Program-made: the position numbers and the translations under genes | DNA from: Tribonema minus | Taxonomy: Eukaryota > Sar > Xanthophyceae > Tribonematales > Tribonemataceae | Assembly: GCA_017506865.1 (NCBI GenBank) | Contig: JAFCMP010000013.1 | Span: 558,001-622,000 of the forward strand | Reading direction: 5' to 3' | DNA: 64,000 nt | Shown here: one piece after another, positions 1-64,000 of the stretch | Layout of the letters: every line of letters starts with the position of its first letter | Position numbering within the stretch: position 1 is the first letter of the stretch | The notes under the pieces: model-generated | The model's database searches: none | What the model saw: only the letters and a program-made list of their open reading frames with translations | Told to the model about the DNA's origin: nothing

Positions 1-3000
1 GTTGAGCTGGGTCTCGTTGGCGTCCGCGGCCTGCATGTGTTGACACTCACGCGGCGGAGCAGCGTTGCGGATTCGCAACACTTGATTTCACGCGTTGGCG
101 TAGATATGTACGAGCTCATGCGATGAACTGAAGACCTGGCAACAGCACCCCCATCCCCAGCATGGGGAGTCAGCGCAATGGTCAATGGCTCAGGCTTAGA
201 AGCGATGCGCGTTTAAAATATAGATACTTTGAAGTACTGTGTATACATGTATACATACACATACACTCTTGTACTTCTATGTTTATATTTACGCGGTGTA
301 TATTGCGCGCGCCTGTAGCATGTCCAGCGCGCGTGCGGTGAGGCCGTCTTCCGACTACCATCAACGCATTTTACTCCGGTGCCAGGTATGTCACAATGTC
401 ACAGCGTGAGCAATCCATGCGCTTGCAGCACCGGCCCTGGCAAATACTCTTTATATGGAAACGATTCAAAAGATCGTAAGCTCCAGGTGACAAGGTGTGG
501 TCAGCCGCCAGTGCTTCACATGTCACATATATATTTTGAACCATTTCCGTATCCTTCTCTCTCTATATATATATATATGAAGGATATTCATATTTATAAT
601 ACACGACGAATACTGCGCGCACCTGCAGCGTGTCGAGCGCGCGCGCAATGAGGCCGTCGTCCGACGCGCCCGCGCCGCCGCCACCCGACAGCAGCGCCTC
701 CATGAATGACACAGCGGCATCTACGCAGGGGCCTTCGCACAAGACGACGCGCACGACGGCGGCGTCGGCTCCGCTGCCGTCGCCGCCTGCAAGGGAGCCA
801 AAGAGCAGCCAGGGTACAGTTACACTGCTTGTCGATTCCGTGGATACAGCATCTGGGTGATGTGAGCAGACACTTCGGTTTGAAGTATATGAATGGGGCC
901 CTCGCACAGGACGGCGCGCACAACGGCGGCGCCCGCTCCGCTGCCGTCACCGCCTGTTGAAGAACCCACAATGAAGCCGAAGCTCAGTGGATGCAGCGTG
1001 TGGGTGTATGTGGGCACTTCTTACTCACACAGACACACATAAATTTTATACACGGGGAACAAGCCATAAAGAGTGTGAAGTTTTTGCGAAGAGTCTGGGA
1101 GAGGCAGCAGCATGTGCAGCACTTCTTGCATGGCACCGACCAGCAAGGGCACCCCTTGCATGGCACCGACCAGCAAGGATAGGCACATGGCTGCAGCAGA
1201 GTACTAGCTGGTAGGCTAGCAGAGAAAGCAGACAAACCAGCGCGAACAACAGCGGCGTCGGCTCCGCTGCCGTCGCCGCCTGTTGAGGGGTCGCAACGAA
1301 GCCGAGCCTCAGTGTCTGCTCGTCATGTCCATGAATACAGCATCTGGGTAATGTGGGCAGATGCTTCAGTTTTGAAGTTTATATGCAGGGGCCCTCGCAC
1401 AGGACGGCGCGCACAACGGCGGCGTCGGCTCCGCTGCCGTCGCCACCTGCTGAGGAACCGCGACGACGCTGCAACTCAGTGTCTGCTTGTCATGTCCATG
1501 AGTACAGTATGTAAAGGTACTTAGGTATGTATATATAATACCCGGGCCTCGCACAGGACGGCACGCACCACAGGAGCCTCCGCTCTGCTGCCGTGCCGCC
1601 TGTTTGGGAGACGAAAGGAGCGATAATTCGAAAATCTCACAATGTGCACCCGTCTACATGCTTCTCGCACCGCTTGTACTTCGCGTGTGCATGCTGCCTG
1701 TGCCTTTAGCGTGGAGCAGTTTTGCCAGCACAGCGAGCCACGCCTTGCGCCTGTTGCCTGCATTGCACACAGTGCTGCGCAGAGAAGCCTCGGCCACTGC
1801 TGCAGTTGCACCCTGATTCACCACTCCTCAATGTATACTGCAAAGTACAACTTGCATGCTGGACATCCACCATCTGAGCTTTTTCGCGCCCTAAGCAAGA
1901 ATTAATGAGAAATGTGACGTACATACATACCTGTCTGCGCCAGAAGCGTGGCGAGCAGTTTCGCCAGCACCGCCAGCCACGCCTTGCAGACCGTGGAGGA
2001 CAGAGACGTTGCAGCGCCGGCGCCGGCGCCGCCGCTGCAGCGTGCCGCGATGCACAGCGGCGTAACGCTGCAGCCGAGCCCCACGCACAGCGCGCGTACG
2101 AATATACGTTGCACACACGCAAGAGTGGTCTGTTCATTGATGTTGAAGTATACACGCCATTGGTGGAGAACTTCAACTGACTGCGGGCGGAGGCCTCAGT
2201 TGTTGAAGTTGAAGTAACGTGCCCCCCAGACACTGCCTAAACCACCGTCAACACAAACGTGATACGGAGCAAGGTGCAGCTGCGAGCAGCGGTGCCAAGG
2301 GCACTTCGCGTTTGCAACAACCCCGACCGCCCACGACACTTCTACTTCATACATAGTACATACATAGTACATTCAAAGTACATGGCGGCGTCAAAGAAGT
2401 TCCCGAGGGGCACTTGAATGAAAAACGAATCAAAAAGATCGTTGAGCTCTAGGTGACAAGGGATGGTTAGCCGCAAGTGCCTTCCACCAATAACCGTGGT
2501 CGCCGCTGCTGCAGTCATTGGCCACGAGTCAAACAGCGCCACCATAACCACAGTAGACAAAAAGACTTACTGCACCTCACAAAGCAGTTCAAACGCTAAC
2601 CTTAGCCCCCTAGCCCGATCAACCTCGTCATCCAGCACCAAGGGTAGTTTTGAAAGCGTGTGCCAAGGACAAATCGCTAGGATGCGCCCTGAATGCTGCA
2701 TCGTGGCTCGACGACCCACAAACCTTGACGACATGAATCACCAGAAGCAGCTTCAAAAACCGCCACCATCTCAGTGTCATCGGCCGTCAAACGCATCAAC
2801 AATGCAGCTTGAACCCTACTATTGATGCTGCCAACAAACCTTGTCATCGACCAGCGAAGGCAGCTGCCTGGAGGAGCCCACGGTGCCGATGCTCTCACTG
2901 TCGCCGAGGCTGCTGCCGTCCCCTGCATCGCCGCCCCCATCCCACGTCCGCGGCGAGCCGACGCTGCGGGGTCCGCCGTGCGCGCCGCCGTCGCTGACGC

Positions 3001-3012
3001 TCTCCATCGCTG
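1..3012 (-). CDS. Exons 12-15: Ser/Gly linker and further helical repeats (partial)
   Basis: Exon 12 (2840-3012) reads MESVSDGGAHGGPRS then an acidic Ser/Gly stretch ending LPSLVDDK, donor AAG|GTTTGT. Exon 13 (1931-2180) contains STVCKAWLAVLAKLLATLL, donor ACAG|GTATGT; its 5' border at a CCCGCAG acceptor is the least certain, chosen because the frame stays open and the phase fits. Exon 14 (623-786) reads VSFMEALLSGGGGAGASDD and ends LIARALDTLQ. Exon 15 starts at 30 (AADANETQLN) and leaves the window. Exons 13-14 look like HEAT/ARM helices, in the position where HECTD1 has a second helical segment after its ankyrin repeats. Confidence 0.55.
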
Positions 3013-6000
3013 CTGCCGCGAAGCGACAGGAGTGTGTGTCCAATCAGAGCAGGTGCGCTGTACGAAAGCATTGGCTTGTGGAAGATGTGAAGTTTGTGAA
3101 AGTGGTAAGTGCCATGTTTATGTGGAACCGGCGCTGCGGGGTCCGCCGTGCGCGCCGCCGTCGCCGACGCTCTTCATCGCTGCTGCCGTAGCGGTGCGAA
3201 AGAAGCGCGTGTTTGATCGCAGCAGAAGGTCGTGGTGCCATGTGTGTTCAAAAAGTAGGTGCCAGACCTGCGCGTAACTGACGCTGCGGGGTGTCCGCCG
3301 TGCGTGCCGCCGTCGCTGACACTCTCCATTGCTGCTGCGGTGTTGGTGACAGAAAATTGCAAACTCCATTGTGAAGTGCGCTACCCCCGGACCATTGGTT
3401 GTGAGCGGGAAGTTCAAAGTTTGTGAGAAGTAGGTGCCAGATGTAGTGGTATACGACGTGCGCGCCGCCCCCGCGCACGCTCTCCATCGCTGCTGCCGTG
3501 GCGGTACGACAGAAGCGCGTGCGTGATCACAGCAGGAGTGTGTGCCGCTGGACGTAAAGTGAAAAATTTGGGGTGTGCCGACGTAGTCTAAGTGCCATAT
3601 CTATGTAAAGCGGCGCAGCGGGGTCCGCCGTGCGCGTCGCCGTTGCTGACGCTCTCCATCGCTGCTGCCGCGGGAATCGTTAGAGGTGCGTGTTTGATCA
3701 CAGCAGGACTGTGTGCTTCTGCACGTTAAGTGGAAGATTTAAGGTTTGCCAATGTAATACGCGCTATATATAAAGTGGAACCGGCGCTGCGGGATCCGCC
3801 GTGTGTGTCATCGTTGCTGACACTCCCCAGCGCTGCCACAACAGCGGTGCGTACTTCAAGCACTCGGAGTACTTGTTCACAGCAGAGGAGTGTGCTGCTA
3901 CAGACGCAGTGATTTGTGGACGAGATGAAGTTTGCAGAAGGGTAGATGTAGTTCTCATAATACTGATGCTACAGGGTCCGCAGTGCGCGTTGCCGTCGCT
4001 GACACTCTCCACTGCTGCTGCCGTGGCGGTGCGACAGCAGCGCGCCTTTGATCGCAGCAGGGCGGTGTGCTGCTGAGTACTGGAGCACTGATTTGCAGAG
4101 GAAGATTTGAAGTTGTAGAAGTTGTGATGCATAATGGCGCATGACAGCTGACATTCGTATCATCATCAACAGTGCTCAGCCTCTCGTACTATGCTTGCAC
4201 ACTGCGGACGCCCCTCTCCCCCCTCCCCCCTCCCCCCCCCCTCTCCTTCCTATAGCCATGATAGCCACTGCCATGACGTACCGCACCACTACGGGCGCCA
4301 GACACCCACCACACAAACGAGCAATGTAGCACCTAGCAGCACCACAAATATGTGTGACAGCGCTCACGTGACGGCGCACCTGCGGACGCGCCATCCCCAT
4401 CCCACGTGTCCGCTTCCCCCTCCCCTTCCCCCTCGTCCCCCTATGTGCACAAGAACCACTGCCGTGATGTAGTGCACCACCAACACCCACACCAGAGAAG
4501 AGCAGCTGCCCGCCTAGCAGCACTACAAATACGTGTATACGTGTGACAGCGCTCGTGCACAGGCGCACCTGCGGACGCGCCATCGCCGTCCCTCGTGTCC
4601 CCTTCCCCTTCCCCCTCTCCTCCTATTTGCACGAGAACATGACGTAGGTGCACCACCAACAATGACCGCACAAATGAGCGCTGTCACGCCTAGCTGCTCA
4701 CGCACTGGCGCACCTGCGGACCCGTCCCTCGTGTCCCCTTTTCCTTCTTCCCCCTCCCCTTCCCCCTCTTCCCCCTCCTCCTCCTCCTCGTCCCCCTCGT
4801 TCTCCATCGCCTCGATGCTCTCCGACAGGCGCGCGAGGATCGACTCCTCGGAGCACACGTCCATGGGCGTCGCGCCCTGCCGCAGCCAGGTGTGGCAGCG
4901 CTCAGTACGATGCACCAATGCTCAACGCATATGACATTCATAACAGTGCTCAGCAATGCTCAGTTCGATGGGTGCTGCGCCCTGGCCGCGGCGGGGGCGT
5001 GGACGGGTGTGCCAGCGCTCAGTACGATGCGCAGCGCTCAACACATACTTCTATGGGACATGACAACGCTCACTACAGTGCGCAGTGCTCAACGCAGCTT
5101 CTGAAGCACAGGAGCCATGGACAATGTTGGTGCAGCCACCATCGGCAGGGGGCCGCAAAGTCGCCTTTGCTTGTTTAAGTTGAGGGCGCAATCCGGTGTC
5201 AGAGGACGTGACGACGCTGGGTGCAATGCGCAGTGCTCAGCGCATATGACATGGCGTCACAACGCACAACAAGGCTCAGTAAGACGCACAGTGCTCAACG
5301 AATCTGACATAACAATGTTGCTCAGTACATTACGCAGTGCTCGGCGCACATGGCGCGCCAAGCCGAGCGCGCTTCGTTGGGGTTAGGGTTAGGGTGAGCT
5401 CTCCCAGACAGGCTTGGCTTAGGGCTTCAGTTTTGACCCTGCGCCAGAATGAGGGGATTGTGGGCGAGAACATCTGTGGGGATCACGCACAATTACACTA
5501 GCAGCAGTGCTCTGGTATAAGCACTGCAGAGTACGAGGTGCTCTGGTTAATTTGAGTGGGCGCAGAGATTAAGGGTAGGGTCGGAGTTACGTCAGCGTCG
5601 GTGAGGCCAGTTGAACTTCACATTGAAATTCGCATTAGAACCAGCATCAGCGCTAGGGGCAGCGCACATGGGCCGAGCGAAGGATAAGGCTTGACTTTCG
5701 GGTTAGTCTTAGAATTACCTCTGCGTTGGTGGAGTTTGGGTCTGCACCCGCGTCCAGCAGGGCGGCGACGACCTCCTCGTGCCCCGCAGCAGCGGCGGCG
5801 TGCAGCGCCGTTCCCTGCGCCGCAAAGATTGAGGAGTTTGTAAGTTGAAATCAGAGTGAAGCACATATACTAATACACAGAGAGTCGTGGAGTTGTTGGC
5901 GTTCAGAAGGGCAGCGACGACCTCCTCGTGCCCGGCGGCGGCGGCGGCGTGCAGCGCCGTTCCCTGTGCCACAAAAAATCGAGAAATTTTGACAATGAAG

Positions 6001-9000
6001 TCAGAGTGAGGCAAAATACACGTACACATAGAGTTTTAGAGTCATCGACGCTGCTGTCGCATGTCTGCGCACTGTTGCTCGACAGCATCCTCGTGCCCGG
6101 CGGCGGCGGCGGCATGCAGCGCCGTTCCCTGCAGTGCAGCGATTAAGTTTTGTGCGTGCTGAACTAGGTATCAGTGAGGCACATACACATGTGTAGAGTC
6201 GCTGACGCACGCTGCTGCAGCATGCCTGTGCACCGTTGCTCAAATCGGCAAGAGCATCCTCGTGCGCCGCAGCAGCTTAGGGTTAGGGTTAGGGTTAGGC
6301 GGGTTGTCCTCTGTACGGCTGCGGTCATGTGTCGCGCGACAAAGTGACAGCGAGGCACATCTGTACGTCTTTCCCAACTATACAAGCATATCGTATAGTC
6401 CGTGACGCGTGTGGCAGCACAATCGCGCGCCATGACTCCGGCTGAGCAATGCGCACGCCCTTGCGCAACAGATGCGCTGCTTAGTGCTTGCTGCGCATAC
6501 GATACGCATACCGCCAGGTGCCGCGTGCAACACCAGCCTTATAGCGTAAGGGTTAAGGGTGGCCCCTGATCCCAATCCTGACTGTCGCAAAGTCCGTGCG
6601 CAAAGCGTCAATGAAGCGTTCATGAAGTCGTCATGAAGTGTTCGCAAAGTGTCCGTGACACAAGCACATGGCCTACATACCGAAGCGCCAATAAATCGGC
6701 CTACATGCTGAAGCGTCGATGAATCATTCACAAGGCCGTCATGAAGTGTTCGTGAAGTGTCCATGACACAAGCACATGGTCAACATCTACAAACCGAAGC
6801 GTCAATACATCTTTCACGCAATCTTCATGGAGTGTTCACGAAGTGTCTATGATACAAGCACATGGCCAAGGACACTCCATGACACAAGCACTTGGCCTTC
6901 ATGTTGAAGCGCCAATTCATCATTCAATGACATTCATGCAGTCTTCATGAACTGTTCATGAGGCGTCATGAATTGCGTGCCTACATACACACCGTTGGCA
7001 GCGACAGCATGGGGTCCGCGCCGTTCTCCAGCAGCAGATTCACCAGCTCCAGCGCCACATCGGCCTGTGTCAATCAACACACATACATACCGTATTGCAA
7101 CAAGAGGCACGTCAATGATTCCGCACATCGGCCTGCGTCAATCAACATACATACCTATTGCAACAAATCAAAGGATCGTAGAGTTCTAGGTGACAAGGTG
7201 TGGTGAGCCGTCAAATTGAATGAACGACCGTGGTCGCCGCTGCTGCAGCAATTGGCCACGAGTCAAACAGTGCCACCATGTATTGCAATGAGAAAGAACG
7301 CCAATGATTCCGCATCAACGGCGCGTGCATGGTGGGACGCAATATCTGCGTCTGACAACAGAGCCAGGCATGCCAATGACTCCGCATGCGCAGGGTGGTC
7401 AACGGACCGGTGCAACGTGCGAGGATTGAAATGATTCTGCATCGGCAGCGCAACCATCGTGGGACACATTTGCATGCGTCGGTCAACAGAGCAGAGTGGG
7501 ACGGGAGGCATGTCAACGGTTCCGCATTCAGGCGTGATGTGATGCATTGCCTGCAATACTCGCCGCAGCGGAGTGAAGAGGGACGCATGTTAATGATTGA
7601 TTTGGCGGAGCCAGCATGGTGAGACGCATTGCCTGCATCAGCTAACCGGGGCGAGTAAAACAATATGGGTTACACGAAGCAAGCGGCTTGTCGATGTTGC
7701 GCGTCCGGCGGCGCCAGCATACTGGGCACAGTGCAACGAGAGGCACGCTAATGATTGTGCACACGGCGGTGCCAGCATCATTAAACGGATGTTGGTAACC
7801 TAGAGCACAGTAACCAAAACAAAAACAATATGTTGGAGCTCCAATGATTGTGCGTTCAGGGGGCGGGGCACATTGCGCAGCGGGCGCAGCAGCGATCAGC
7901 GGCGCGCCCGCTGCCACGCCCCCCTCCCCCCCATTCATTGTTAGCCAACCAGAGCACGGTAAAGACAATATACTTCAAAGTACATAGGAGCTTCAGTAAA
8001 ACATACCTGTCGGTGCCCCGCGGCAGCGACGAGTGGCGCGCGCGCCGCCGCGCCCCCCTCCCCCCCATTAATTGTTAGCCACCCAGACCATGGTAAACAC
8101 AACACATAGGAGCTTTGGTGATTGTGCAATTCACGGGTGGCGCACCTGCCGGTGCCCCGCAGCGGCGATCAGCGGCGCGCCCGCCGCCGTGCGCCCGTCC
8201 CTCCCATTCACTGCTAGCCAACCAGAGCACCGTACAAACAATACTTCCAAGTACACAGGAGCTTGAGTAAAATGTACCTGCCGGTGCCCTGCGGCAGCGA
8301 TGAGCGGCGCGCCCGCCACTGGCCCCCCTCCCTCCCGTTCATGATTAGCCAACCATACCAAGTAACAACGATAGGTAAGAGCGTCAATTTATCGTGCATT
8401 CTGGGAGTGGGGGACATTGCGTCGAGCGTGCGATGACGTACCTGTCGGTGCCCCGCAGCAGCGATCAGCGGCGCGCTCGCCGCGGCGCCCCCTTCCCCCC
8501 CATTCTTGTCAGCAAACCAGAGTGCGGTTAAAGTAATACGTAAGAGCTTCAGTGACGAGCACGCGATGACACGACCGGTGATGTACGTACCTGTCGGTGC
8601 CCCGCGGCAGCGATCAGCGGCGCGCCTGCCGCCCCCCCCCCCTCTCCCCCGTTAGCGTCCGCGCCGTCCGCCAGCACGCGCCGCACGAGGCTCACGTTCC
8701 CCCCCTCCACAAACTGCTGCAGGAAGCGCTGCTGCATCGCCTGCGCCCCCGCCAGAAGCCCCCCCCGCCCCCCCAGCAGCAGCTCCCCCAGGGCATCGTC
8801 CCCCCCGTCCCCCTCGCCATCCCCCCCCCGCCGCCGCCCCCCCGCCCCCCCCCCGCCGGGGGGGCCGAAGTCGGAGAGCAGCGCGCGCGTGAGCGACCGC
8901 CGCGCGCGCGCCGCAAATGACGCGCTGGCGGGCCCCAGTATGACCCTGTGAGCGTCGATGATCTCTTCCAGGGCGTGCGAGGGGGGGGCGGGGGGGGGCA

Positions 9001-12000: not shown

Positions 12001-15000
12001 GAACCTGCGAACGTACCCGGCATGCCGATGCTGATGGAGCGGTCCCGCGCGGACGGCGGCGGCTCGTGCTGAGCATCGCCACCGTCCTCCAGCATGGACA
12101 GCAGCACGGGCAGCAGCGAGCAGGACGGCGCCAGGGCCAGCGAGCACAGCTCCGGCGATCCCGACAGCAGCTGCGTCACGAGGGACAGGGCCTGCAGCGG
12201 TGGGGGGGGGGAGGGGGGGGGGGGGGGTGAGTGGCAAGTGGGACGAATGGGGGGGGGGAAGCACAGCTGCAGGGATGCTGACAGCAACTGAGAGACGAGG
12301 GATAGGGCCTGCAGCGTTGGGGGGGGGGGGAGAGGGGGGGGATGGGGCATGTGAGTGGCAAGTGGGACGAATGCTGCAGCGGTGGGGGGGGGGCGGCATG
12401 GGCGGGCCAGGTGAGTGGCAAGTCGGATGAATGGGGGGGAGGGACCACAGCTCCTGCAATCTCGACAGAAGATGCGTCACGAGGGACAGGGCCTGCAGCG
12501 GCAGCGCCGCAATGGGGGGGGGGGGGGGCTCAATGGCAAGCGGGACGGGGGGGGGCGGGGGGGGGGGGGGGGGCAGCTGGGATACCAGTGGGGCCCGATA
12601 AGTGGCGAGTGTCGATTGCGGGCCAGCAAGCACAGGTCCGGCGACTTCGACAGTAGCTGTGTCACGAGGGACAGGGCCTGCAGCGGTAAGGGGGGAGGTG
12701 GGGGGGCGGGTGAATGGTGGAGGGACGCGAGGGGGAAGGGGGGAGAGACATTTGGAGGGCCGATCAGCAAGGTAGGACAAAGTCGGGTGGGGGGGGGGCG
12801 GGGAGGGAGGGAGGCGAACAGGAGAGAAGTGCATACATCCTGCCATGCTCAAGTTGAGCACCAGTGCGCTGCTCCGTCTCCCGCACGGCGCGCGCTGCGC
12901 ACCGTGCGCGTCACGCGCGCCGCATCTGATGCAGAGCATTGCACTAACTACACTTTTTGTTCACCCTCGCTTGGGGGCGCAAGGAAGCCCCTGTACTTTT
13001 TATTACTCTTATTCAGGAATCGGTGGGGGGGTCCTCCCCCCCCACCCCCCCACCGGCGCGCGCACACCACACACGCATGCCCGTGGCCTCAGTACAGGTT
13101 GCTACTGTCGTATAGTGTCCCACAATATCGTCTGCTTCATGCCACCGGCTCGCGCGGTGTACGGCGGCTGAAAATGCATTTTTGGTGTGGCTGAATGCTT
13201 TCTGCAAGATGCAATTGCTCGCGCGTTGCCACACACGCACATATGATTGGCGCACACCATGTCAAATGTATCCTATTATAGCCAGTCAACATCACCAGCT
13301 GCAACGTGCATGCTCTCGCTGTGTGTTGCAGCTGCTGTACGCTTGTTGTTGAGGGCGCCTGTTGCAACAACCTCACGAAAGCACGACGAAACGATGTCGA
13401 CACAGCGCGCGTTGCACTCGTAATGAGACGAATTGATGCTATGTATCGTGGACTGTCAGCTGCTATTCACGGCGCGCTGGCAAGCACCGTGGCGCAAGCA
13501 ATAACAGGATTCGGCCTCAGAAAAAAGCGCAGAACTTCCAATGCTGGCTGCTTTTGCTGCTTGCTCGCGCCATGAAGCTGCCGGTGAGCGTTGGCAGGCT
13601 GGGCTACTTACAATACGTTGCTCCTTTGCCTTACGCGGCCTCACTAAGTGTCACTCAGCTGGTATGCTGCCCTGCGGCTCGATTTTTCTATGCGCCAGCA
13701 CACTGGAAGGAGAACCCTAGTTGTGGCCCTCCTACCAATTCTTGTTTTTGTGTCGCACCTTATGAAACACGAGGAAACGAGAGGCACAAAAAATGGGATT
13801 GGTGGGAAAGCCCTACCTTCCCCCCCCTACTTATTAACACCACTGATTCCAGAGAATTAATTCTCGCTCAGGGCGCGAAAAAGCCCAGATGATTGGCATC
13901 TAGCTGTCAGGAATCTACATGTCGTATGACAGTCTGAAAGCGTCGCAACGACAACCACTCAAACGCCGCCGCCGCCAAATGGCATCTCGGGGTCCTCCCC
14001 TACGTCCTCCTCCATGTGCCCCCCCCCCCCTGGATTCTGTACTACAGCACTTTGAGGTACGATGCGACCTCGCGCTCACCTGGAGGTGGCACGCCAGGTC
14101 CCCCGCCGAGCGCTGCCGTATGGCAGCGACCAGCAGCCCCTCGTCCAGCAGCAGCACCCCCAGCGCCCCCGCTGCCCCCCCGTCCCCCTCCTGCCCCGGG
14201 GGGGGGCGGGTGTGTGAGGGGGAGGGGGACAGGCGCGGCGCCACGCGCGTTGCCAGGAGTTGAAGTGCGGCATCCTTGTTGTCGCCGCGGCCGTTGCGCA
14301 GCGCCGCGCACAGGGCGTCCATCACCGCCTCCACCTGGAGTGGCGGGGGTGGGGGGGGGCGGGTCGGGGGGGGAAGGGGGGGGATTAAAAAAAAACACCG
14401 CTGAGCACATGTATGAGGGGTGCGTGTGTGTAAGGACACCGCTGAGCACACATATGAAGAAGCAACTGTGGGCGCAGTGACAAAAACGCGTGAAGGCTGT
14501 CGTGACCTGCCCGTTGCAGGTGCGGGGGGGGGAGCGGGGGGTTGAGTACACTGCTGAGCGTTGTGTAGCGATGTGCCGAAGCGCTGCTGTGCACGCACGC
14601 TGTCTTGAACCGAGTCGCAATGTGGGGAGTGGAAGCAGGCAGTCCTTCTCAGCAAGCACGCTGCCAATCACTGCATATGTACTGCTGACGCATGCAAATA
14701 TTTCCTGCATTCAGTCTTTTAAAACTAGCCTCCGAAGATGTGCACATGCAGTCCCGTCCAGCAGAGGGCAATTCTAAAATGCCACTCTTGTTGTATTTCA
14801 ATGTACAGTACACTCAATGTTCAGTGCACTAATAGATGACGCATGCAATGGTGGAGCGCGCTGCTTGTGCTTTGCTGCATGCGCGCGCGGCAGTGCACAT
14901 GCGCACAGCACCGCCAACAGTTGCGGTTTCAACTTCAACACTGACCTCGTCGGCGGACACGGCGTTGAGCGTGGCGGACGCACCGCGCCTGTGCCACGAC

Positions 15001-34398: not shown

Positions 34399-35596
34399 CT
34401 CATGGCACCTCAGTGTTGTCTGAATTGTTCCGCCATGGTGTGCTGCTTTGTGTCAGGCACATCAAATTCTGATGAAGGCCCCAACAGTCACAGGCGCAGT
34501 GAGGCTGGGTGACACTGTGCACTGCGGCAGTGCCATCACGCTGTGCTTTGAGGAGTGCCACTGGGTCAGGCTCGGAGTGGAAGTGCGCATACCGTAGTGA
34601 GTATTACTAATATGATAGCATGCACCTCTGAGTCAGTAGATACTGTTACACAAACTATGGCTGGCGTCAACATGAGCACAAGCCAGGTCACAGAAAGGTT
34701 TAGGCCCGTACTGCTACATATGATGCTGCTGCTGCCTGCCGTGCCCTGTCTGCTCCCTGACAGCGCTCAACATTTAATGGTACGCTGCTCTTCTCTACTG
34801 CTGTCTCTGCAGGGCATGCGGAATAACCTGGTTGCCATCATACAAGGCCCCATGACATTGCCGTGCATTGATTTCTAGGCGGCGGCGCAGGTGGGGGAAG
34901 GCCCTGGCGGGGCCATGAGGCACCGAACATCTGATTCGTCACAAGCCATGAAGACTTTTTGGAGAAGCAAGTGCTGAGCGTACCCACACTGCGGCAGGGC
35001 CGGCCGTCCCTTCTGCCCCCTCCTTCAAGTTCTTGCGGCAGCAACTCAACGTGTGGGCTTCAAGAAAACGCGGCATGCGCGGTCGACAGTGCTGTTGCTC
35101 ACTGACCATGCGTAGCCTGTGTACACGCGTCTATTAGTACTACCCAGACTGAGTGTCACTGAGCGTCGGCTCAGGCGTGCAGCTGACAGTCACACTGTGT
35201 CAGAGTGAGTGACCAATTCTATACCGTAGGCAGTTTGTTGCAGCGGCCTGTCAAATGACTCAGAAGCAGATGCCATGTAACGGCTTGTCGATGAGCTTTC
35301 ACATGACATGCCATTGAAGCACTCTGAGTGATACATGTTGGGGTGCGGCGGCCATTGTCTACCGTGACGCCAGCCGAGTAGTGTACTATGTACATGTGCC
35401 ATTGTGGTAGTAGCCTGTGCCAATTGGCCTAGGTCTTCAAGCTGCCCAACGTTGTACTGAGTGGCATACCTCAGGCTGTGATGACAATTGCATTGCTACA
35501 ACCGCGTGACGCACTGCAATTGACAATGTGCACCGTGCGGCACATGTACATATAAATATATGTTAACATCAACAGCTGCCTGAACAACTTCAAGTT

Positions 35597-47600: not shown

Positions 47601-47989
47601 TCTGCGCTGCTGACTTCAGCAGCGGCGGCGGCGGCACCTGCCTCGATGGCTGCTCCGGCAGAGGCACATGAGATGAGCGCTGCTGCTGCTGCGGATGCCA
47701 CGGCGACCTCGCCAGACGACGCGGCAGCAATGACCACCGCACCTGACGAGGCAGCAGCCGCGACAGTGGGCCAATTGCCGCTCCCTGCGGACGAAGCAGC
47801 GGATCCCTTTTCATCAGCGGAAGCGGCGGCAGCATCGGATGAGTTCCCGGCGGCAGCAGCGCCGGCGGTCGAGCTTCTCCCTGATGCAGCAGCTGCCGTA
47901 GAACCGGAGCCTGCGGCGGCACACGAAGCGGTCGCCGATGCTGCCGATGACGCCGCTGCGCTCGCAACACCGCCCGCAGCAGCGCTCGA

Positions 47990-48035
<46 letters not shown>

Positions 48036-51000: not shown

Positions 51001-52336
51001 TTTGGCAGCGGTGGAGGTCTGGTTCACCTTTGAGGTTGAGGAACAGACCAACCCTAACCCTCACCCGAACCCTAGCTTGACCGCTGCTGCCGCGCGCCAT
51101 GTACTTTGACGCGGCGGAGGCGCCACGGGAGACGGTGCCTGGTGAGCGCTGACGTGTGTATACATACCGTAGGGATTCGGGGGCATACATACCGTAGGAA
51201 TACGGGGCATTGCTGGTAGTTTGGAGAGCGCTCAGGATGTTTCGCAGGTTGCTCTGGGACGCAGCTTGTTCAGATGTACACATGTACATACACGCGGCAT
51301 GCAGCTGACAGGACGCAGCGGAGGCGCCGCGCGAGACTGCGCCCGGTGAGCGCTGACGCGTGTATACGTACCGTAGGAATATGGCGCATTGCTGGTAGTT
51401 CAGAGGGGGCTCAGGATGTTTCGCAGGTTGCTCTTAATAGCAACTTGTTCTGAACGTACACAGCGCACACATGCGGTACGCAGCTGAACAAGTTCATGCA
51501 CACATACACGATGTGTGGTGCCCCTTCGGCAGTATGGGAGGCCAGGCTCAGCTTTGAGATTGAAGCACCAGCCAATGACTTGACCAGCAGCCGCTCGTTT
51601 GCAGTACGTTGACATTGCCAGATGTGAGGCATGGGGTAGAGCGTGCTCTTTTTTTCCGGTGTCGCAGCCACTGGCTGAATTAGACCACTGTGCTGCGTGC
51701 AAGGGAGTAGGTCATGCAGTGCTAAGCCTCCATCGATAATGACTGGGACATCGCGAAGAACGAGGCTATGTGCAAGCCCGTCATTGGTGCCACAATGTTA
51801 ATCAATAGCCTCTACGAGTAAGATGCAACCATCGTCACGTCAACTTGCGCCGTGCGCCACAATCCATCGATTATCATCGCAAGTTGTTCCAACGTACATG
51901 CCCTCGGAGTTTGCAAGCGAAGCTGTGGCCGCTTGTCCGCACTGCTCCCCACCTGATGACCCTGCTTATTCAAACATGTACCCCGCCCCCCCCCCCCCCC
52001 CCCCCCCCCCCCTCCACCCTCTACCTGAAAAATCTGCTTGCTTTATTCAAACATGTACCCCGCCCCCCCTGACCCCCCCCCCCCCCCTCCACCCCTTCCA
52101 CTTGATGCTTAGGTAACCGTGACAGGTATGCTGCGACCTCGGCCCCTTCAGCGGCGACCCCTTCCACCTGAAAACTCTGCTTGCTTTATTCAACCATGTA
52201 CCCGCCCAGCTGATCCCCCCCCCTCCCCCCCGGCGCTCGATGCTCAGGCAACCGCGACCGGAAGCGCGAGGTGGTATGCTGCGACCTCGGCCCCTTCAGC
52301 GGCGACGGCGGCAGTCCTAGCTGCACGGTGTCGTGA
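38651..52336 (+). CDS. Large Ala/Asp/Glu-rich low-complexity protein with C-terminal CaaX-like box, 10 exons
   Basis: Exons 38651-38972, 40302-40372, 40951-41097, 42483-42539, 43157-43237, 43934-44113, 45198-48572, 49776-49961, 50341-50530, 52248-52336 join in phase to about 1,565 residues; the two phase-1 junctions also match (SRSG-SDVSD, RETVPG-NRDRK). The N-terminus is basic and Ser/Lys-rich (KRSPKRSGSKKK). Exons 2-6 look helical and charged (KEKEFEELLHRERRVG, KERYVRKWVRERQK). Exon 7 is a giant alanine-rich disordered region. The last exon reads REVVCCDLGPFSGD and ends SPSCTVS, so the final four residues fit a CaaX prenylation box (X = Ser, favouring farnesyl). I recognise no family. Prenylation with a basic N-terminus would suit membrane attachment; that is inference. 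Confidence 0.7.
40216..40282. repeat. Head-to-head telomeric repeat
   Basis: TTAGGGTTAGG meets CCTAACCCTAACCC at a palindromic point, then more CCCTAA units follow. It ends about 20 bp before Ala-rich exon 2. Confidence 0.93.
40951..41890 (+). repeat. Exon 3 followed by five donor-edge copies
   Basis: The last 60 nt of exon 3 (AVQRRLHQEDLNHKKK) recur at 41,209-41,268, 41,383-41,442, 41,520-41,570, 41,674-41,730 and 41,829-41,885, spaced about 140-175 bp. The first two copies and the fourth keep AAG|GTGAGC or a near variant; reading is conserved in the first two and decays outward. Copy 41,383-41,442 also has its own acceptor (ACTTTGCAG) and is exactly 20 codons. Confidence 0.9.
41904..42023 (-). 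repeat. Dispersed repeat family R1, inverted copy
   Basis: Reverse complement of the 2,417 copy, nearly full length. Possible 9-bp flanking repeats CATCTACTG and CATCTGCTG differ by one base. It lies in intron 3 of the Ala-rich gene. Confidence 0.88.
43908..43929 (+). repeat. C22 homopolymer at an acceptor
   Basis: Twenty-two C followed by TCAG, the acceptor of Ala-rich exon 6. It serves as the polypyrimidine tract. Confidence 0.95.
44194..44283 (+). repeat. TTAGGG island followed by a donor-edge copy of exon 6
   Basis: The last 34 nt of exon 6 (AGCAGCACGTACTCACGCAA and the following donor CGG|GTGCGT) recur 170 bp downstream at 44,250-44,283. The space between contains about nine TTAGGG or variant units. 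Confidence 0.9.
44605..45050 (+). repeat. Three acceptor-edge copies upstream of exon 7
   Basis: CAGCTCGACCCGCACAGC, the 5' edge of exon 7 at 45198, also occurs at about 44,611, 44,796 and (as CTCGACTCGCACAGC) 45,009. Each is preceded by a C/T-rich stretch and AG. All three run about 50-60 nt into the exon sequence (ACGCGCTCGAGCCGCCTGCC) and then change to intron-like sequence with CTCATT and CATCATCAGCTCAA. Confidence 0.9.
45198..48572 (+). CDS. Exon 7: 1,125-codon alanine-rich acidic exon
   Basis: Starts after TGTGCAG as LDPHSGASSTRSSRLPSRDW and ends DDALKEGDE at GACGAG|GTGACG. After an acidic patch (DGDSDDDDSDSF) it is dominated by Ala with Glu, Asp, Pro, Ser and Thr and few hydrophobics, so disorder is expected. 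Ala codons mix GCG, GCA, GCT and GCC, giving no pure trinucleotide repeat over most of its length. There are internal duplications: a unit of about 45 residues (EPAAAHEAVADA ... ATPPAAALEA) at 47,908-48,055 recurs at 48,064-48,195, and PLVSEEAAEGAAGA is echoed by PLFSEEAQKGGAAG near 48,340-48,420. No stop or frameshift interrupts it. Confidence 0.8.
48731..48800 (+). repeat. Donor-edge copy of the giant exon 7
   Basis: CAGTGGACGAGGCGCTGAAG, GGGGACGAG|GTGACG and the following CCGCAACTGTAACTGT recur about 190 bp after the true exon end at 48572, including the donor. Confidence 0.85.
48957..48998. repeat. Head-to-head telomeric repeat
   Basis: GGGTTAGGGCTAACCCTAAC followed by further CCCTAA units: a second inversion point between the two strands of the telomere unit. 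Confidence 0.93.
49186..49610. repeat. Inverted repeat with protein-like arms
   Basis: The arm at 49,186-49,322 (plus) and the arm at 49,483-49,610 (minus) are about 80% alike by eye. Both read, outward to inward, N-K-x-H-x-x-V-L then TSWRDIIKLANRAVV or TSRREIKLANRAVV and FTNK. The one length difference is three bases, so the frame is kept. The spacer holds a short TTAGGG island. It could be a head-to-head pair of gene or transposon fragments in intron 7 of the Ala-rich gene. Confidence 0.65.
50341..51350 (+). repeat. Exon 9 followed by three donor-edge copies
   Basis: The 3' part of exon 9 recurs at 50,744-50,860 (about 115 nt, open frame, LLDAEGSDTRPLLPRAMYS), 51,081-51,141 and 51,312-51,346, each ending CCCG or CCTG|GTGAGCGCTGACG. 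Intron filler between copies is also shared (CATACATACCGTAGGAAT and GTAGTTTGGAGAG). Confidence 0.88.
51049..51076 (-). repeat. Short CCCTAA island
   Basis: ACCCTAACCCTCACCCGAAC and CCTAGC, next to an exon 9 donor-edge copy. Confidence 0.8.
51986..52012 (+). repeat. C27 homopolymer in the last intron of the Ala-rich gene
   Basis: Followed by a duplicated context (CTTGCTTTATTCAAACATGTACC recurs nearby in shorter words) and shorter C runs at 52,064-52,086, about 230 bp before the terminal exon. Confidence 0.93.
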
Positions 52337-55121: not shown

Positions 55122-55152
<31 letters not shown>

Positions 55153-58141: not shown

Positions 58142-58457
58142 GTTGTAGGTGTTCAGCCTCGAAGTTCAAACACTGAACTGTTGAAGTTTTTCGCGAAGAG
58201 ATGAAAGAAAGCCTTCCTTTATCTGCCAGGCGCCAGCCTGCGGGACTGGCGAGTGCGGGGCGCAGCGGCCTGCTGCCTTGAGTTTCAGGGTCGCGTTCCT
58301 CGCTCCGAGTGATCCTGAAGCGTCACAGCAGTGCCTTCATCTGGGCCCTTGCTGGATCGCTTGACACACACACTGGCCAGCTCAATAGCAAACGCTCCTG
58401 CCTCGCAAAAAGCGACGGCTGCCTCGCGGATACAGCAGCAGGCCAGCAGCAGCAAGG
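58142..58457. promoter_or_regulatory. Shared intergenic region between divergent genes
   Basis: 316 bp separate the ATG of the minus-strand Tudor-like gene from the ATG of the plus-strand START-like gene. It is GC-rich with no obvious TATA element. A bidirectional promoter is inferred from spacing. Confidence 0.45.
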
Positions 58458-61400
58458 ATGCAGGCAGCAGTGAACGTGAAGCGGCTGCTGAAGCGGCGCA
58501 AGAAAGGGGCCGCCTCCGCTGCCGCCGCCGCCGGCGCCCTGGCTGCCTCTGATGGCAGCGCCACCACCAGAGGTGTCAGCTACGATGACCCAGATGGCGA
58601 TGGCGAAAATAACGTTGCGGAGCCTGGGAAGGTGTTTGATTGGGAGAATGAGCCAGTCACAGCCAGCAACGTGATGGTGGCGTTGGAGCAAGCGAGGGAG
58701 CTAGACAGAGATGCCAGGCTGATAGTGGCGGTGGCGCTGCTGCGGAAGATAGAGGCGCTCGTGGGGGATGCGGCGCAGCAGCACTACTCTCAAGTGCAGG
58801 TGACTGCCGCACAATTGTCCCATGCACATGTATCACCGTACTGGGTACACTCTGTGTATTGGGCCATCAAGTAATAGTCGAGCTGTGACTGAAAACCATG
58901 AGTTGATGATGCACATTGGCCTGTTCATCAGACGTTACCTTGCCCTCTGGAGCGAATCTACAAACGGCTTTTTCAACATGCTCGCTCGACGTTTCTCCCT
59001 CTGCTCACTAGAGTGCGTTTTGAGTAGGTGATCATGAATCGCTGATTTGACTGTATACATAGAGTCATGACCAACATGGGGCGGAACCTCTGCGCAGAAC
59101 TGATTTTCTTTGCGCTTGCACAAGTCAGCAATACTGCCGGCATCAGTATCGCCCGCCAGCTGCGAGGTTGCAGATGTGCAAGTGCTGTGCAGTGTACGAT
59201 GAACGATGGCGCCATGCATGCTGTCCAGTCATCTGCTCGACACCAGCACTGACACAGGGTACACTAGCACGAAGGCGGACCAGCTTCGGTGTGTCTAAGC
59301 ACAGCAAGTAGCGTTCTCCGCTGCACTGCACCTCATATGGCGCCTCATGATTTCCGCTCTCAAGTCATCCAGCCGGTATGGCGTCAGACACAGTATTTGC
59401 ACTGGGTCGAGAGGGGGGGGGGGGGGGGGGGGGGGCTGAATTACCTCTTAAAGCAGCACTCAGTGGCGTACCTGCATGCTGCCCCTGTGTCACCAACGAC
59501 TGTCGTAATCGGCATGCTTTGATACAGCAGCGCCAGCCGCTTTGGAGGTGGAGGTGGGGGGAAGGTGGAGGTGGGGGATGGGCCACTGTGCAACAGCGCT
59601 CAAATTCTGTGCTGACATGCCAGCCTCCATGCAGATGTTGACGGCAAGGCTCATGTTCATGGTGTGGGACACAGTGAAGCAGCGCTCAGTATAATGCGCC
59701 AACGTACAATGCACATTGCCAGCACATTCATTCATGGCATGCTGTACAGTAGCAGCGTCGCTTGACTCAGCGGGGGAGAGGGCGGTACGCCAAGGTCAGA
59801 GTCAGAGTGAGTGTCAAGGTAACCGTTGGGCCCTTACCTCAGGGGGGAGGGCAGTAGGTCAAGGTTAGGTTCAAAACTTTAGAGCCAAGGTTAGGCATGG
59901 GCGCACGGAGCAGGAGCGCTCAACTCTGTGTGCTGACATACCCTTCTACAATGCATCATATGATGCAGCGCACAACATTGTGTGCTGACATAGAAGTATT
60001 GAAAATGCACAAGTTCATGACACTATCCCATTGATGGCATTGCGCACAGGCGGCAGCGCTAGCGCTGGAGCGGGAGCGGGAGGCCTGGGACACGCTGAAG
60101 CAGCGCTCCGCGGCGTGCGCGGACACGCTCTCCGACTGGGAGTCGCCGGACTGGATCTTTGCGCAGTCGTACATGGGCGTGTCCACGTACTACAAGAAGG
60201 ACCCCACAAACGGCACGCTCTGGGTGAGTTAGGCAATGCTGCGTATCATGCTTACATTAAAGATCATGTATGCACTACAAGAAGGACCCCACAAACGGGA
60301 CGCTCTGGGTGAGCGCGCTGTTGCTGAGCAGTGCTGCAGTGCTGCAGTTCATGCTTACATGTTGAAGACTTTGTGGTTCATGCTTACATGTTGAAGAGTA
60401 CGTATGTATACGAGAAGAAGGACCCCACGAACGGCACGCTCTGGGTGAGAGCGCGCTGTTTGTTGAGCGGTGCTGCAGTTCATGCTCACATAGTAGAGAG
60501 TATGTTTGTATACTACAAGAAAGACCCCACCAACGGGACGCTCTGGGTGAGAGCGCGCTGTTGCTGAGCGGTGGTGCGCAATCCTGGCGGCGCGTGCATG
60601 TTGAAGTTTGCTTTTGGCGCCGCGTGCGCTGATGCACCTCTCGCAGCTTCTGACGTCGCAGTACCGCCCAAACATAGACCACGCAAACGGTACTGCCACA
60701 TTTGACGTACACACGGTGGCACGTATGAACATGCATACATGCGGTGGCACCTCTTCTCGCGCAGGTCGTCCGCTCATGACCCGCATCTATATACTACGTA
60801 TATACCGGCCACTTCAACCGGCCACTTCAACTGAAGCGCACACATTGAATGCTATCTGAGCGCTGCCGCAGGTGAAGCTGAGCGGCGTGATGGACGGGCT
60901 GCAAAGTGATGCCGCAGCACCGTTCAATTACAAGCAATGTACACACGGTAGCACGTATGAATGTGCGCATACGCTCAGTGGCATCTATCCTTCGCGTGGG
61001 TCGTCCGCTCATGCCCCGCATCTACATATATATACTGGCCACGTCAAACGGCCACTTCAACTGGAGTGTCTTACTTCAACACTCTCCGAGCGCTGCCGCA
61101 GCGGCGTGATGGAGGTCTGCGGCGTGATGCCGCAGCACCGCTCAGTCACACCCAACGCACACAGTAGCACGTACGAATGTGCATACACGCAATGTGGCAT
61201 TCTTCTCTCATTCCACTTCAACTGGAGCGTCACATGCCAATGTTTCAACTGGAGCGTCACACACGCCACTTATGCTCTGAGCGCTGCCGCAGGTCAAGCT
61301 GAGCGGCGTGATGGAGGGGCCGCAACGCACTGGACCAGCACCGCTCAATCGCAAGCAATGTACACACAGTAGCACGTATGAACATGCATACATGCAGTGG

Positions 61401-64000
61401 CACCTCTTCTCTTACACGTTGTCTCCACCTTCTGCCACTTCAACTGGAGTGTCACACTCCACTATATGCTCTGAGCGCTGTTGCAGGTGAAGTTGAGCGG
61501 CGTCATGGAGGGCTGCAACGTGCTGGACCAGCTCGCGGTCGTGCGCGAGATAGACCTGTACTCGCTGTGGATGCCCTTCTGCAGCGCCGCGCGCGTGATC
61601 CGCTACCTCGGGCGCGTCGAGCTCATCGGCTGGCTCGAGGTGTGTAACTGAAAACAGTTGCATGATGATCGGTAACTGAAGAGACTTACAGCTACAACTG
61701 AATGCAAAAATACAAACCGGAAGTACCTGCACTGATTGGTAGCTGAATGCAGCTACAGCTACCTCGGTGGCGCCGAGCTCTTCGGCTGGCTTGAGGTGCG
61801 TAACCGAATACAGTGAATAGAGTTATACGATCGGTGGAAGAGTTGCAGCTACCTTGCAACCATGTAATTGAATAGCGATGCAGCTACCTCGGGCATGTTG
61901 GGCTCATCGGGGCTCGAGGCGCGTAACTGAATACAGTTACATGATTGGTCCTGAACGAGTCACAGCTGCCTCGGGCGCATCGAGCTCATCGGCTGGCTCG
62001 AAGTGCGTAACTGAATACAGTTACAGTCTATAATGTGCTGTTGAGGCAGTTTCTGAATGCAGTTCGAGCTGCTTTGGGAGCATTGGCCCGATCGGCTGGC
62101 CTGAGGTGCGCAACTGCACAGAATTCCGTGCGCTGGTCAACTGAATATGCACAGTTGCGTGTGTGGGTTAGGGTTAGGGTTAGGGTTAGGGTTAGGGTTA
62201 GGGTTAGTTCCAACACAGCACTCTAGCTTCGAGATTTTAAAGTCTTTACGCTGCCATCTTCATGCACCGGTCAGCTTGCCGGGGTAAATCTCATCCTGAC
62301 CCTATTTTGATCGTGCGTTGAATGTTCAAAGTATTACTTGAAGTATAAGGTGCAGTCTCGTGCGCAGGTCAGCATGCAGGGTCACCCTGTATGCTAGAAG
62401 TAACTGTTGCGCTGACACAAACCCTATCATGCTCCGAAAAGGCACAATCACGTACGTCTCCGTCTCTATGCGCAGGTGAGTCTATTGTCGTAATGAATCT
62501 TGTGCGTTGAAAAGTTAACATCATGTGCGCCGCTGCCTCGTGCGCAGGTCAGCTTTCATGCGATCATGCTTGAACAATTCAGACAATGCGCACTGCCGTC
62601 TCCACCCACCGGTCACCATACTGGGTCAACTTCATCCTATTCATGCTGCAAAGAGTCAAAATTATGAACGCCTCCGCCTCCATGCGCAGGTCGGCATGCC
62701 GGCGTTTGTGCGCGACTGCATCATGCTTGCGATTAAATGCATCAGTCTAGCTGTGAGAATCCCGGACTCATTTAGGTTGTCCTCTTCTTGCGCAGATCAG
62801 CAGCACCAGGTTCGCCCCAATCCTACCATGCCTTGAGAACTCAAAGTCACATAGAAGTATGCCGCCGCCTCCACACGCAGGTCAGCATGCCTGCCGGGTC
62901 AACCTAAATCCTGTCCATGCTGTGACGACTCAAAATCATACGCTGCCGTTTTTGTGCGCAGGTCAGCATGCCGTCAAGGTCGTTCAGTCGCATCAGTCTA
63001 GCTATGAGACCTCCAAATTTATGTGCGCTGCGGACTCCATGCGCAGATCAGTGTGCCAGGTTCACCGTTTCCCTAACCCCCTAACCCTAACCCTAACTCC
63101 GCGCGCAGGTCAGCATGCCGGCGTTCGTGCGCGACTGCGTAACACACGCGTCAAATGCATCAGTAGCTATGATAATTGCAATTTGATGTACGCCGCCGGC
63201 TTCATGCGCAGATCAGCACGTCAGGTCCACCCTAATCCTACGATGCTATGGAAACGTGATAATCATGTACTTCTACCCCTCCTTGAACTGCGTGCGCAGG
63301 TCAGCATGCCGGCGTTCGTGCGCGACTGCGTGATGCACGCGTACGCCTGCGACTGCATCCTGGAGGACAAGTGCATACTCCTGCAGTCATCGTCCATTGA
63401 CGAGTGGCCGGTGAGTCATTGCTCTGAGTCATGAGTCGCAAGTCATGTTTCATGCGTACGCCTGCGACTGCATCCTGGAGGACAAGTGCATACTGCTGCA
63501 GTCCTCGTCCATTGACGAGTGGCCGGTGAGTCATCGCTCCGCATCACGAGTCGCGAGTCACGAGCCGTGTCGCGACCAGCAAGTCTTTTCGATCTCATGA
63601 AGGGATTGCCTCGGGATCGCCACTCACAAGTCATTTCAGAAGTGAGTTCGATCCGGGAGCAAGCGTCGCGCAGCGCGTTTGCCCACGGATGGCAAGCGGT
63701 CGCGTGATAACACTCGCGCGCTCATCGCCTACTTGTTGGCTGTCGGCGCTGAGCAGTGCTGCAATGCGCTATCGCGTGCGTTCTGGTTGACCATTGCGGC
63801 AGCGTCGACCGAGAGGGTAACGGGTAGGGTTAGGATAGGGTCAGGGTGAGGGTTTGGGTTAGAATCAGGGTTAGGTGTGTGTGTGACCCCCCAGTGTTGG
63901 AGTTAGGTGAGAGTTAGGTCGCAACGACTGCAGAGCATCATGCGCGAGTTCGTCGTGCCACATGTGAGGTTCGCGCGCACACTCAGGGAGCAGGACGCTC
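58458..64000 (+). CDS. START-like lipid-binding domain protein (runs off right edge)
   Basis: Exons 58458-58799, 60050-60223, 61487-61639, 63300-63410 and probably 63934->64000, all phase 0. The N-terminus is strongly basic (VKRLLKRRKKGAAS), then an acidic linker and a long helical stretch (ALEQARELDRDARLIVAVAL, ALALEREREAWDTLKQRS). The START-like part starts near DWIFAQSYMGVSTYY and includes AVVREIDLYSLWMPFC, RVELIGWLE, MPAFVRDCVMHAYACDCILE and ILLQSSSIDEW. That order (strand, D-L-x-x-W-x-P-F, G-R-x-E-x-x-G-W-L, R-D-x-x-x-x-x-x-x-D) fits algal and protist START-related domains, which bind hydrophobic ligands. Exon 5 (SIMREFVVPHVRFARTL) is less certain. The ligand is unknown. Confidence 0.72.
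59413..59435 (+). repeat. G23 homopolymer
   Basis: In intron 1 of the START-like gene. No splice site is adjacent on this strand. Confidence 0.93.
60184..60547 (+). repeat. START gene exon 2: three donor-edge copies
   Basis: The exon end YYKKDPTNGTLW|GTGAG recurs at 60,271-60,309, 60,407-60,445 and 60,509-60,547, all with GTGAGC or GTGAGA donors. Codons remain readable (one Y to E change in the second). Unit spacing is about 85-135 bp. Confidence 0.92.
60865..61486 (+). repeat. START gene exon 3: acceptor-edge copies
   Basis: GCGCTGCCGCAGGTGAAGCT at about 60,860, a deleted version near 61,090 and GCCGCAGGTCAAGCTGAGCG at about 61,285 copy the TTGCAG|GTGAAGTTGAGCGG start of exon 3 at 61487. 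Filler between them shares CACGTATGAA and ATACATGC words. The copies extend 25-40 nt into exon sequence, then decay. Confidence 0.85.
61740..62110 (+). repeat. START gene exon 3: four donor-edge copies
   Basis: The exon end (CTACCTCGGGCGC...GGCTGGCTCGAG|GTGTGTAACTGA) recurs at about 61,760-61,795, 61,881-61,918, 61,970-62,004 and 62,068-62,104. GTGCGTAACTGAATACAG-type intron starts follow the first and, after base changes at the donor, the others. Confidence 0.88.
62165..62208 (+). repeat. Interstitial telomeric repeat, seven TTAGGG units
   Basis: Seven perfect GGGTTA units lie in the intron between START-gene exons 3 and 4. It is the longest perfect island in the window. Confidence 0.97.
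62362..63299 (+). repeat. START gene exon 4: about ten acceptor-edge copies
   Basis: The 5' edge of exon 4 (GCGCAG|GTCAGCATGCCGGCG) recurs at about 62,362, 62,470, 62,541, 62,686, 62,794, 62,873, 62,957, 63,041, 63,104 and 63,207 before the intact exon at 63300. Most keep CAG followed by GTCAGC or ATCAGC; the 62,686 and 63,104 copies extend to GTGCGCGACTGC. Shared filler includes AAATGCATCAGTCTAGCT. Confidence 0.92.
63071..63097 (-). repeat. Short CCCTAA island
   Basis: CCCTAACCCCCTAACCCTAA and CCCTAA, directly before an acceptor-edge copy of START exon 4. Confidence 0.9.
63450..63522 (+). repeat. START gene exon 4: recent donor-edge copy
   Basis: The last 73 nt of exon 4 (from CATGCGTACGCCTGCGACTG to GAGTGGCCG|GTGAGTCAT) are repeated 112 bp downstream with only a few changes and an open frame. 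It is the youngest-looking copy in the window. Confidence 0.93.
63820..63880 (+). repeat. Degenerate TTAGGG island
   Basis: GGGTAGGGTTAGGATAGGGT followed by GGGTTTGGGTTAGAATCAGG; it lies before the last visible START-gene exon. Confidence 0.85.

Follow-up and report, generated by a model that had tools for sequence, protein, structure and literature searches.

Introns of Tribonema minus hold tandem copies of the edges of their own exons, probably from recurrent short duplication across exon-intron borders

The window analysed here is a stretch of 64,000 nucleotides of Tribonema minus DNA (contig JAFCMP010000013.1, 558001-622000) from an assembly of 158 Mb in 554 contigs, and its GC content lies at about 45-70% per 2 kb. 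It holds an ankyrin-repeat exon on the reverse strand, and on the forward strand an RWP-RK gene and two genes for which we use the working labels gene B and START-like (the second for a weak, below-cut-off match to PF03364 only). The Pfam run, made on 23 chosen translations and not on all open reading frames, returned RWP-RK and the ankyrin exon, with PF03364, PF03221 and PF04852 below cut-off, and Rfam and tRNA scans gave no matches. Two long open reading frames overlap on opposite strands, at 45174-48602 (forward, 1142 aa) and 44978-48211 (reverse, 1077 aa), neither with a Pfam match; the forward one continues gene B and contains a 156-bp repeat (47898/48054), a multiple of three. The main features, with the copies of exon edges that are the subject of this work, are the following.

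279..355, reverse strand, donor and 3' edge of exon 623-786 in 1 copy
623..786, reverse strand, exon with both edges copied; the acceptor edge (CCTTGCAG/GCGGCGACG at 786) has 4 copies upstream and the donor edge (at 623) has 1 downstream
895..1610, reverse strand, array with the acceptor and 5' edge of exon 623-786 in 4 copies
3125..4060, reverse strand, array with tandem period 171 and 6 copies of a 5' edge; the source exon begins at 3014
4348..4640, reverse strand, 2 copies of a 3' edge with donor; the source exon ends at 4714
5719..5814, reverse strand, ankyrin-repeat exon, source of copies; PF00023 at E=1.6e-9 on its translation
5899..6132, reverse strand, 5' edge of the ankyrin exon in 2 copies
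7867..8504, reverse strand, 5 copies of a 3' edge with donor, at a spacing of 132-164; the source exon ends at 8591
12230..12745, reverse strand, 4 matches (one just 23 nt) to a 5' edge; the source exon begins at 12194
20320..20497, forward strand, 1 copy of a 3' edge with donor; the source exon ends at 20188
29359..34875, forward strand, RWP-RK gene, a counter-example without edge copies; exons at about 29359-29556, 31581-32831, 33734-33874 and 34813-34875
40951..41097, forward strand, gene B exon, source of a donor-edge array
41207..41880, forward strand, donor-edge array of exon 40951-41097
44194-44215, TTAGGG run between exon 43934-44113 and its donor-edge copy
44239..44312, forward strand, donor-edge copy of exon 43934-44113
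44497..45055, forward strand, array with 3 copies of a 5' edge; the source exon begins at 45198
50748..51444, forward strand, donor-edge copies of the exon ending at 50530, outside the counted border sets
60050..60223, forward strand, E2 of the START-like gene, source of copies; joins E3 without a gap against a Choristocarpus tenellus protein
60274..60577, forward strand, 3 donor-edge copies of E2
60826..61405, forward strand, 3 acceptor-edge copies of E3
61487..61639, forward strand, E3 of the START-like gene, both edges copied
61756..62128, forward strand, 4 donor-edge copies of E3
62251..63246, forward strand, about 10 acceptor-edge copies of E4, full or partial
63300..63410, forward strand, E4 of the START-like gene, both edges copied
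63446..63560, forward strand, copy of the E4 donor edge with 90-92% identity, a clean head-to-tail duplication of 115 bp

The exon-edge copies in introns are an observed property of this assembled sequence. In a self-BLAST of the window (matches of at least 30 bp, 69 low-complexity pairs excluded), 103 direct matches and 1 inverted match were spaced by less than 5 kb, 2 direct and 7 inverted by 5-10 kb, and matches more than 10 kb apart were few (11 direct, 13 inverted). With a fixed search space, spacings up to 1.5 kb gave 102 direct and 2 inverted matches, which cover 20.0% of the window bases, against no local match in one dinucleotide-shuffled version of the window. Borders with copies in the adjoining intron could be fixed at 17 positions in 14 exons, ten of them on the forward strand (donors 20188, 41097, 44113, 50530, 60223, 61639 and 63410, with 50530 taken from the self-BLAST and sequence reading only; acceptors 45198, 61487 and 63300) and seven on the reverse strand (acceptors 786, 3014, 5814 and 12194; donors 623, 4714 and 8591). 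They follow a side rule: copies of a 5' edge lie upstream of the source exon and copies of a 3' edge downstream. When eight of the window borders were searched on both sides and both strands, all 25 matches listed were direct and on the expected side. A preliminary description had spoken of at least fifteen exons in several unrelated genes with one to ten copies per edge, and of copies on both strands and in most genes. The copying, its presence on both strands and the range of 1 to about 10 copies all hold; the fixed count is 14 exons with 17 borders, and "most genes" is contradicted by the stretch from 20.5 to 41.0 kb, RWP-RK gene included, which is without a local pair.

That stretch yielded no local pair in the window self-BLAST, four parts of it being tested again, and it does contain short-period repeats. 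The introns of the RWP-RK gene, for which three relatives were found, all EukProt transcripts, are 0.9-2 kb long. Between 22 and 40 kb the GC content is 0.45-0.53 in eight of nine 2-kb windows, and we speculate that this low-GC, duplicate-free stretch possibly has a different history; any account of the arrays must explain it. GC content was also considered as a driver and showed a weak relation (rho 0.13, P 0.046, 229 windows). As separate observations, introns with a GC donor (AG/GCAAGT) occur at least twice, at 33875 in the window and at 2727 in another stretch, L032, and long C/G runs lie near acceptors and within arrays (40170-40186, 43909-43931, 59418-59436, 12190-12570).

Two other kinds of sequence are scattered through the window. 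The telomere repeat is TTAGGG (contig 2 opens with a CCCTAA array), and interstitial TTAGGG runs of at least two units occur in both orientations at 5380, 6277, 9236, 16060, 16096, 21046, 39715, 40227, 44194, 48966, 49369, 51050, 62165 and 63079. There are 23 such runs in 144 kb (about one per 6 kb) against 0-1 for 12 control hexamers, they are absent from five of eight other stretches, and four perfect units have 7062 overlapping matches genome-wide, true telomeres included. The idea that they mark duplication breaks was not supported, as a duplicate end was found within 30 bp for 11 of 46 and 9.9 were expected. A dispersed element of about 115 bp, possibly a small transposon, lies at 41906-42020, 2534-2422, 56903-57019, 7268-7162 and, in part, 514-455; it also occurs in five other stretches (L032, L034, L036, L041 and L050) and is 78-96% identical to the copy at 41906.

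In the START-like gene the arrays can be set beside a related protein. With residues 115-411 as the query, the sole match at E<=0.001 among 6552 length-limited candidates was a protein of the brown alga Choristocarpus tenellus (49% identity). By sequence alone, this match, the RWP-RK exon and the many kinesin exons indicate an alga, probably an ochrophyte; a green alga, which the RWP-RK domain had suggested, became less likely with the brown-algal match. It aligns through E2/E3, E3/E4 and E8/E9 with gap-free junctions and includes no copy; it lacks the predicted E5 (10 aa) and E7 (21 aa), which may be an error of exon prediction here or of annotation there. At the acceptor 63300 we counted 11 acceptor-like units, the source included, at an identity of at least 60%, and the duplication on the other side of E4 spans 63331-63560 and includes the E4 edge plus GTGAGTC.

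The same geometry was found in unrelated genes on many contigs. Eight other 10-kb stretches, set at chosen round positions rather than drawn at random, one each on eight large contigs, all contain local direct repeats, which amount to 5 to 17 direct pairs and 7.8-18.4% of bases per stretch; the total is 75 direct against 3 inverted pairs, the inverted ones all in L049, and two shuffles of each stretch gave no local pair. The window, and with it the START-like gene and gene B, had been picked for its visible arrays. Kinesin exons were located by a Pfam model, with repeats ignored, and this set is therefore free of the window's selection bias. The model has 132 matches in the genome. Among 70 kinesin exon cores, searched on both sides and with two exons counted twice, 31 have direct matches in their flanks and 2 have inverted ones, and the matches listed (up to 8 per exon) include no copy of a whole core. 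From the 132 matches we picked ten stretches with multi-exon genes (L037-L046). These and the window together have 153 predicted borders, and at least one edge copy was found at 46 of them, with 89 copies in total when the expected side only was searched; 46 of 153 is probably a minimum, since many of the border predictions are rough. The kinesin loci L025 and L029 duplicate L041 and were counted among the 70 cores and left out of the 153 borders.

Four of these 46 are second calls of the same border, which leaves 42 border families. The exon part of a copy has a median of 41.5 nt (IQR 35-57, maximum 99) and the nearest copy is spaced by a median of 170 bp (IQR 125-191), roughly as first claimed, and the spacing is even modulo 3 (27, 30, 27). 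Among 56 young pairs (at least 88% identical, spacing up to 450), eight are clean head-to-tail duplications, with units of 60, 61, 70, 85, 87, 115, 168 and 330 bp and overlaps of -11 to +4 bp, so that long pre-existing homology was not needed for those eight; two of them lie at fixed borders (63336 in the window, 755 in L032). The shared core of 47 of the 56 young pairs is shorter than the spacing by at least 23 bp. The adjoining intron is shared by 55 of 84 copies, 16 are without such similarity and 13 lie between, and eight of the 16 have an exon part that is at least 90% identical. In the kinesin stretch L041 the dispersed element sits in the spacer of a donor-edge array. One kinesin donor has copies at +233, +533 and +757 with exon identities of 0.97, 1.00 and 0.82 (65 exon nt at +533); the proposed decay with distance is thus a tendency only, since the copy at +533 matches better than the nearer one. 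Re-duplication of larger blocks would be expected to leave copies in an order that does not strictly follow their age. The median intron length is 1229 bp where border copies are present (18 introns) against 704 bp without them (13 introns; P=0.048), in a set that includes four introns with doubtful borders.

The 31 introns of that set, again with the four doubtful ones, contain 35 duplicate families, of which 15 cross the donor, 12 cross the acceptor and 8 are internal, and none links both borders of one intron. Uniform placement would give 8.3 (sd 2.3) border-crossing families, against the 27 found. A constrained source exon could ease the detection of border families, and the test was therefore redone with intron sequence only, on the 27 introns with better borders. 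There, 16 of 21 families were border-linked where 4.2 were expected, a count reached in none of 200,000 simulations, and five had no border link; in the kinesin genes alone it was 8 of 11 against 1.9 expected (P=6e-5). The edges themselves point the same way. The outer 36 nt of an exon match its own intron at 23 of 51 edges (doubtful borders excluded, both sides searched), the reverse complement at 1 of 51, and pieces taken 90-126 nt inside the exon at 0 of 27, under a threshold that 1% of 277 foreign-intron comparisons pass. Where both introns of an exon were fixed (14 exons), matches lie on the expected side in 16 of 28 cases and on the wrong side in 0 of 28.

In the eight other stretches, 10 of 37 families are purely non-coding, against 18.7 after circular shifts (P=0.0015; 0.0005 to 0.0015 at four thresholds), and 4 of 37 are coding-like. 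Coding regions were guessed there by codon usage, where a threshold of 0.3 is passed by 94% of exon and 17% of intron bases and one of 0.4 by 86% and 9%. The coverage of introns by duplicates, measured on the 31-intron set, shows no fall with distance from the border, at 0.18-0.28 in the donor half and 0.29-0.57 in the acceptor half. The arrays are thus border-enriched and not border-only, with about a quarter of the families non-coding or intron-internal. The border origin given in the preliminary description stands as an enrichment and falls as an exclusive rule (10 of 37 families non-coding, 5 of 21 without a border link), and its wider claim of widespread, repeated tandem duplication across exon-intron borders that lengthens introns is supported.

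The copies decay without coding constraint, and the source exon is constrained. Exon differences between source and copy fall at codon position 3 in 200 of 379 cases, and when the changes are polarised, they divide over the three codon positions as 2:1:12 in the source and 52:49:73 in the copies; the slight position-3 excess of the copies we ascribe, without proof, to changes of the source between successive duplications. Exon divergence is 0.171 between copies against 0.107 between source and copy. In 28 copy pairs with clearly homologous intron parts, divergence is 0.182 in the exon and 0.114 in the intron part, indels number 2.78 and 2.86 per 100, and 28 exon indels are frameshifts against 2 in frame. 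For 32 pairs of source and copy under the same condition, the exon differs by 0.114 and the intron by 0.161. Over all copy pairs, with no condition of homology, the exon is better conserved than the intron window (divergence 0.171 vs 0.216, indels 1.75 vs 4.97 per 100), and likewise in 48 copy pairs without intron homology, where divergence is 0.162 in the exon and 0.256 in the adjoining window, with 20 frameshift and 4 in-frame exon indels; we ascribe the better conservation of the exon in both sets to windows that run past the duplicated unit. Coding constraint on the copies, hinted at by mostly synonymous differences in single cases, was rejected after the polarised and copy-copy comparisons. 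Judged from their sequence, the copies thus look dead, and coding selection seems to act on the true exon only, as the excess of frameshifts, the decay of exon parts no slower than that of aligned intron parts and the polarised codon positions indicate. Most copies are 3-30% diverged, so doubled haplotypes do not explain them.

Splice sites were said to be retained, and mostly they are: 41 of the 46 acceptor copies have AG, and of the 38 donor copies 32 have GT and the other 6 GC. This persistence is barely above that of neighbouring positions (identity of 0.956 at AG vs 0.83-0.89 beside it, 0.921 at GT vs 0.87-0.91 beside it) and needs little special explanation. Preferential retention was not accepted, as the small excess could stem from requiring alignment across the border.

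We consider it probable that short tandem duplications recur across exon-intron borders, are harmless, then decay and are duplicated again, and that introns grow by this process. One end of each duplication would lie about 15-100 nt inside a coding exon and the other in the adjacent intron, and the duplicate, placed head to tail, would consist of the exon edge, the splice site and some intron. The outermost splice site, attached to the complete exon, would stay in use, so that the inserted unit would be removed with the intron and the protein would remain unchanged; we infer that the outermost site is used in every case. The copy would be free to mutate, with decay and insertions to follow, while new duplications of the border or of the array would add copies and the intron would grow. 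Every copy was presumably born by head-to-tail duplication, the clean recent cases being a minority of the young pairs; against tandem duplication with neutral decay, the 16 of 84 copies without intron similarity, eight of them with at least 90% exon identity, are not predicted. The border bias would come from the mutation process and not from selection for the copies: breaks or replication stalls may be favoured in exons or at exon-intron transitions and may be repaired by slippage or by end-joining with little overlap. Selection against exon-internal duplicates cannot explain the bias, because intron-internal duplicates should be at least as harmless. A stronger form, in which the borders themselves are hot spots, a mutational process tied to exons, splicing or transcription duplicates tens to hundreds of bp across them often enough, genome-wide, to be the main engine of intron growth, and much intron sequence is border-derived, we hold only tentatively, with the chances somewhat against it.

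Tandem duplication might instead strike at random everywhere, with exon-internal duplicates purged and those within introns or over borders surviving, and the edge copies would then be the visible share of a minisatellite-like turnover. Such turnover would account for the purely non-coding families (10/37), the intron families away from borders (5/21), the occurrence of coding-like families (4/37) and a duplicate coverage that does not fall away from the borders, but it predicts about 4 border-linked families in 21 where 16 were seen, and 1.9 in 11 for kinesin where 8 were seen. Detection from introns only reduced the bias and the enrichment stayed, and the stretch of 20.5-41 kb is mostly non-coding yet without a local pair; we regard random duplication as unlikely. 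Functional copies, whether alternative or mutually exclusive partial exons or selected decoys, seem very improbable to us: frameshift indels outnumber in-frame ones by 28 to 2, aligned units have diverged as much in the exon as in the intron, changes are nearly flat over codon positions, the C. tenellus protein is without the copies and their exon part ends at variable points. What speaks for function is that splice dinucleotides are mostly intact, that eight copies combine an exon part at least 90% identical with no intron similarity, and that one copy in gene B (about 41380-41442) has AG, GT and an open frame. We give almost no credence to a spread of the arrays by mobile elements, be they introner-like or of some other transposon family. 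Introners are known to supply intron sequence (PMC9860276) and the dispersed element of about 115 bp is present at five window places and in five other stretches, but each array is built from the edge of its own exon, distant window matches are few and in both orientations, and the dispersed element is separate from the arrays.

Recurrent duplication across borders shares traits with several known systems. With intronic minisatellites and tandem exon duplication it has in common tandem units that measure tens to hundreds of bp, and also their decay and renewed duplication; unlike in these, the units are tied to splice borders and are truncated pieces of exons. Tandem arrays were found in the one assembly analysed, and the copies do not keep the frame and coding constraint of functional tandem exon duplications. 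Introners are families copied to many genes, and like them the present process produces intron sequence genome-wide; unlike with introners, each intron here is filled with the edge of its own exon, and in the window near-identical sequence at many unrelated loci is not seen, the distant matches being few and without orientation bias. The nearest published idea is the tandem genomic duplication model (Rogers 1989), in which, as presented in PMC3443670 and PMC4974935, duplication of an exonic AGGT segment gives rise to a new intron. As in the cited accounts of this model, the duplications here are short, head-to-tail and intragenic, carry splice signals and would leave the protein unchanged (local repeats are nearly all direct, and 8 of 56 young pairs are clean and the rest not); unlike in those accounts, the segment straddles an existing border and an existing intron grows, at 23 of 51 tested edges. 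The duplicated segments are not exonic AGGT segments, since 27 of 35 families contain the exon-intron border and 8 are internal. One border-crossing case is on record, from the potato RdRp gene, where the duplication spans an intron-exon boundary (Ma, Lan and Niu 2016, PMC4974935); as given in the cited part of that account, it was a single event in which exonic sequence was inserted and a new intron created, and the same part describes neither an array nor a mirror image on the donor side, nor a pattern over the genome. For the intron-rich chlorarachniophyte Amorphochlora, the cited part of PMC12730881 reports intron gain and longer introns and does not mention such arrays. Among the titles and abstract openings listed in searches of the open literature, none describes genome-wide exon-edge arrays; subscription papers were mostly outside this search, and absence from print is not established.

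The source of intron sequence is usually untraceable because intron sequence decays, and here it adjoins the intron, can be recognised and is present at many stages of decay. How fast introns grow, in what unit sizes and with what breakpoints and effects on splicing, thus becomes directly measurable in Tribonema minus. If true, border-biased duplication would be a new kind of regional mutation bias, and it would also be a natural source of cryptic splice sites and pseudo-exons.
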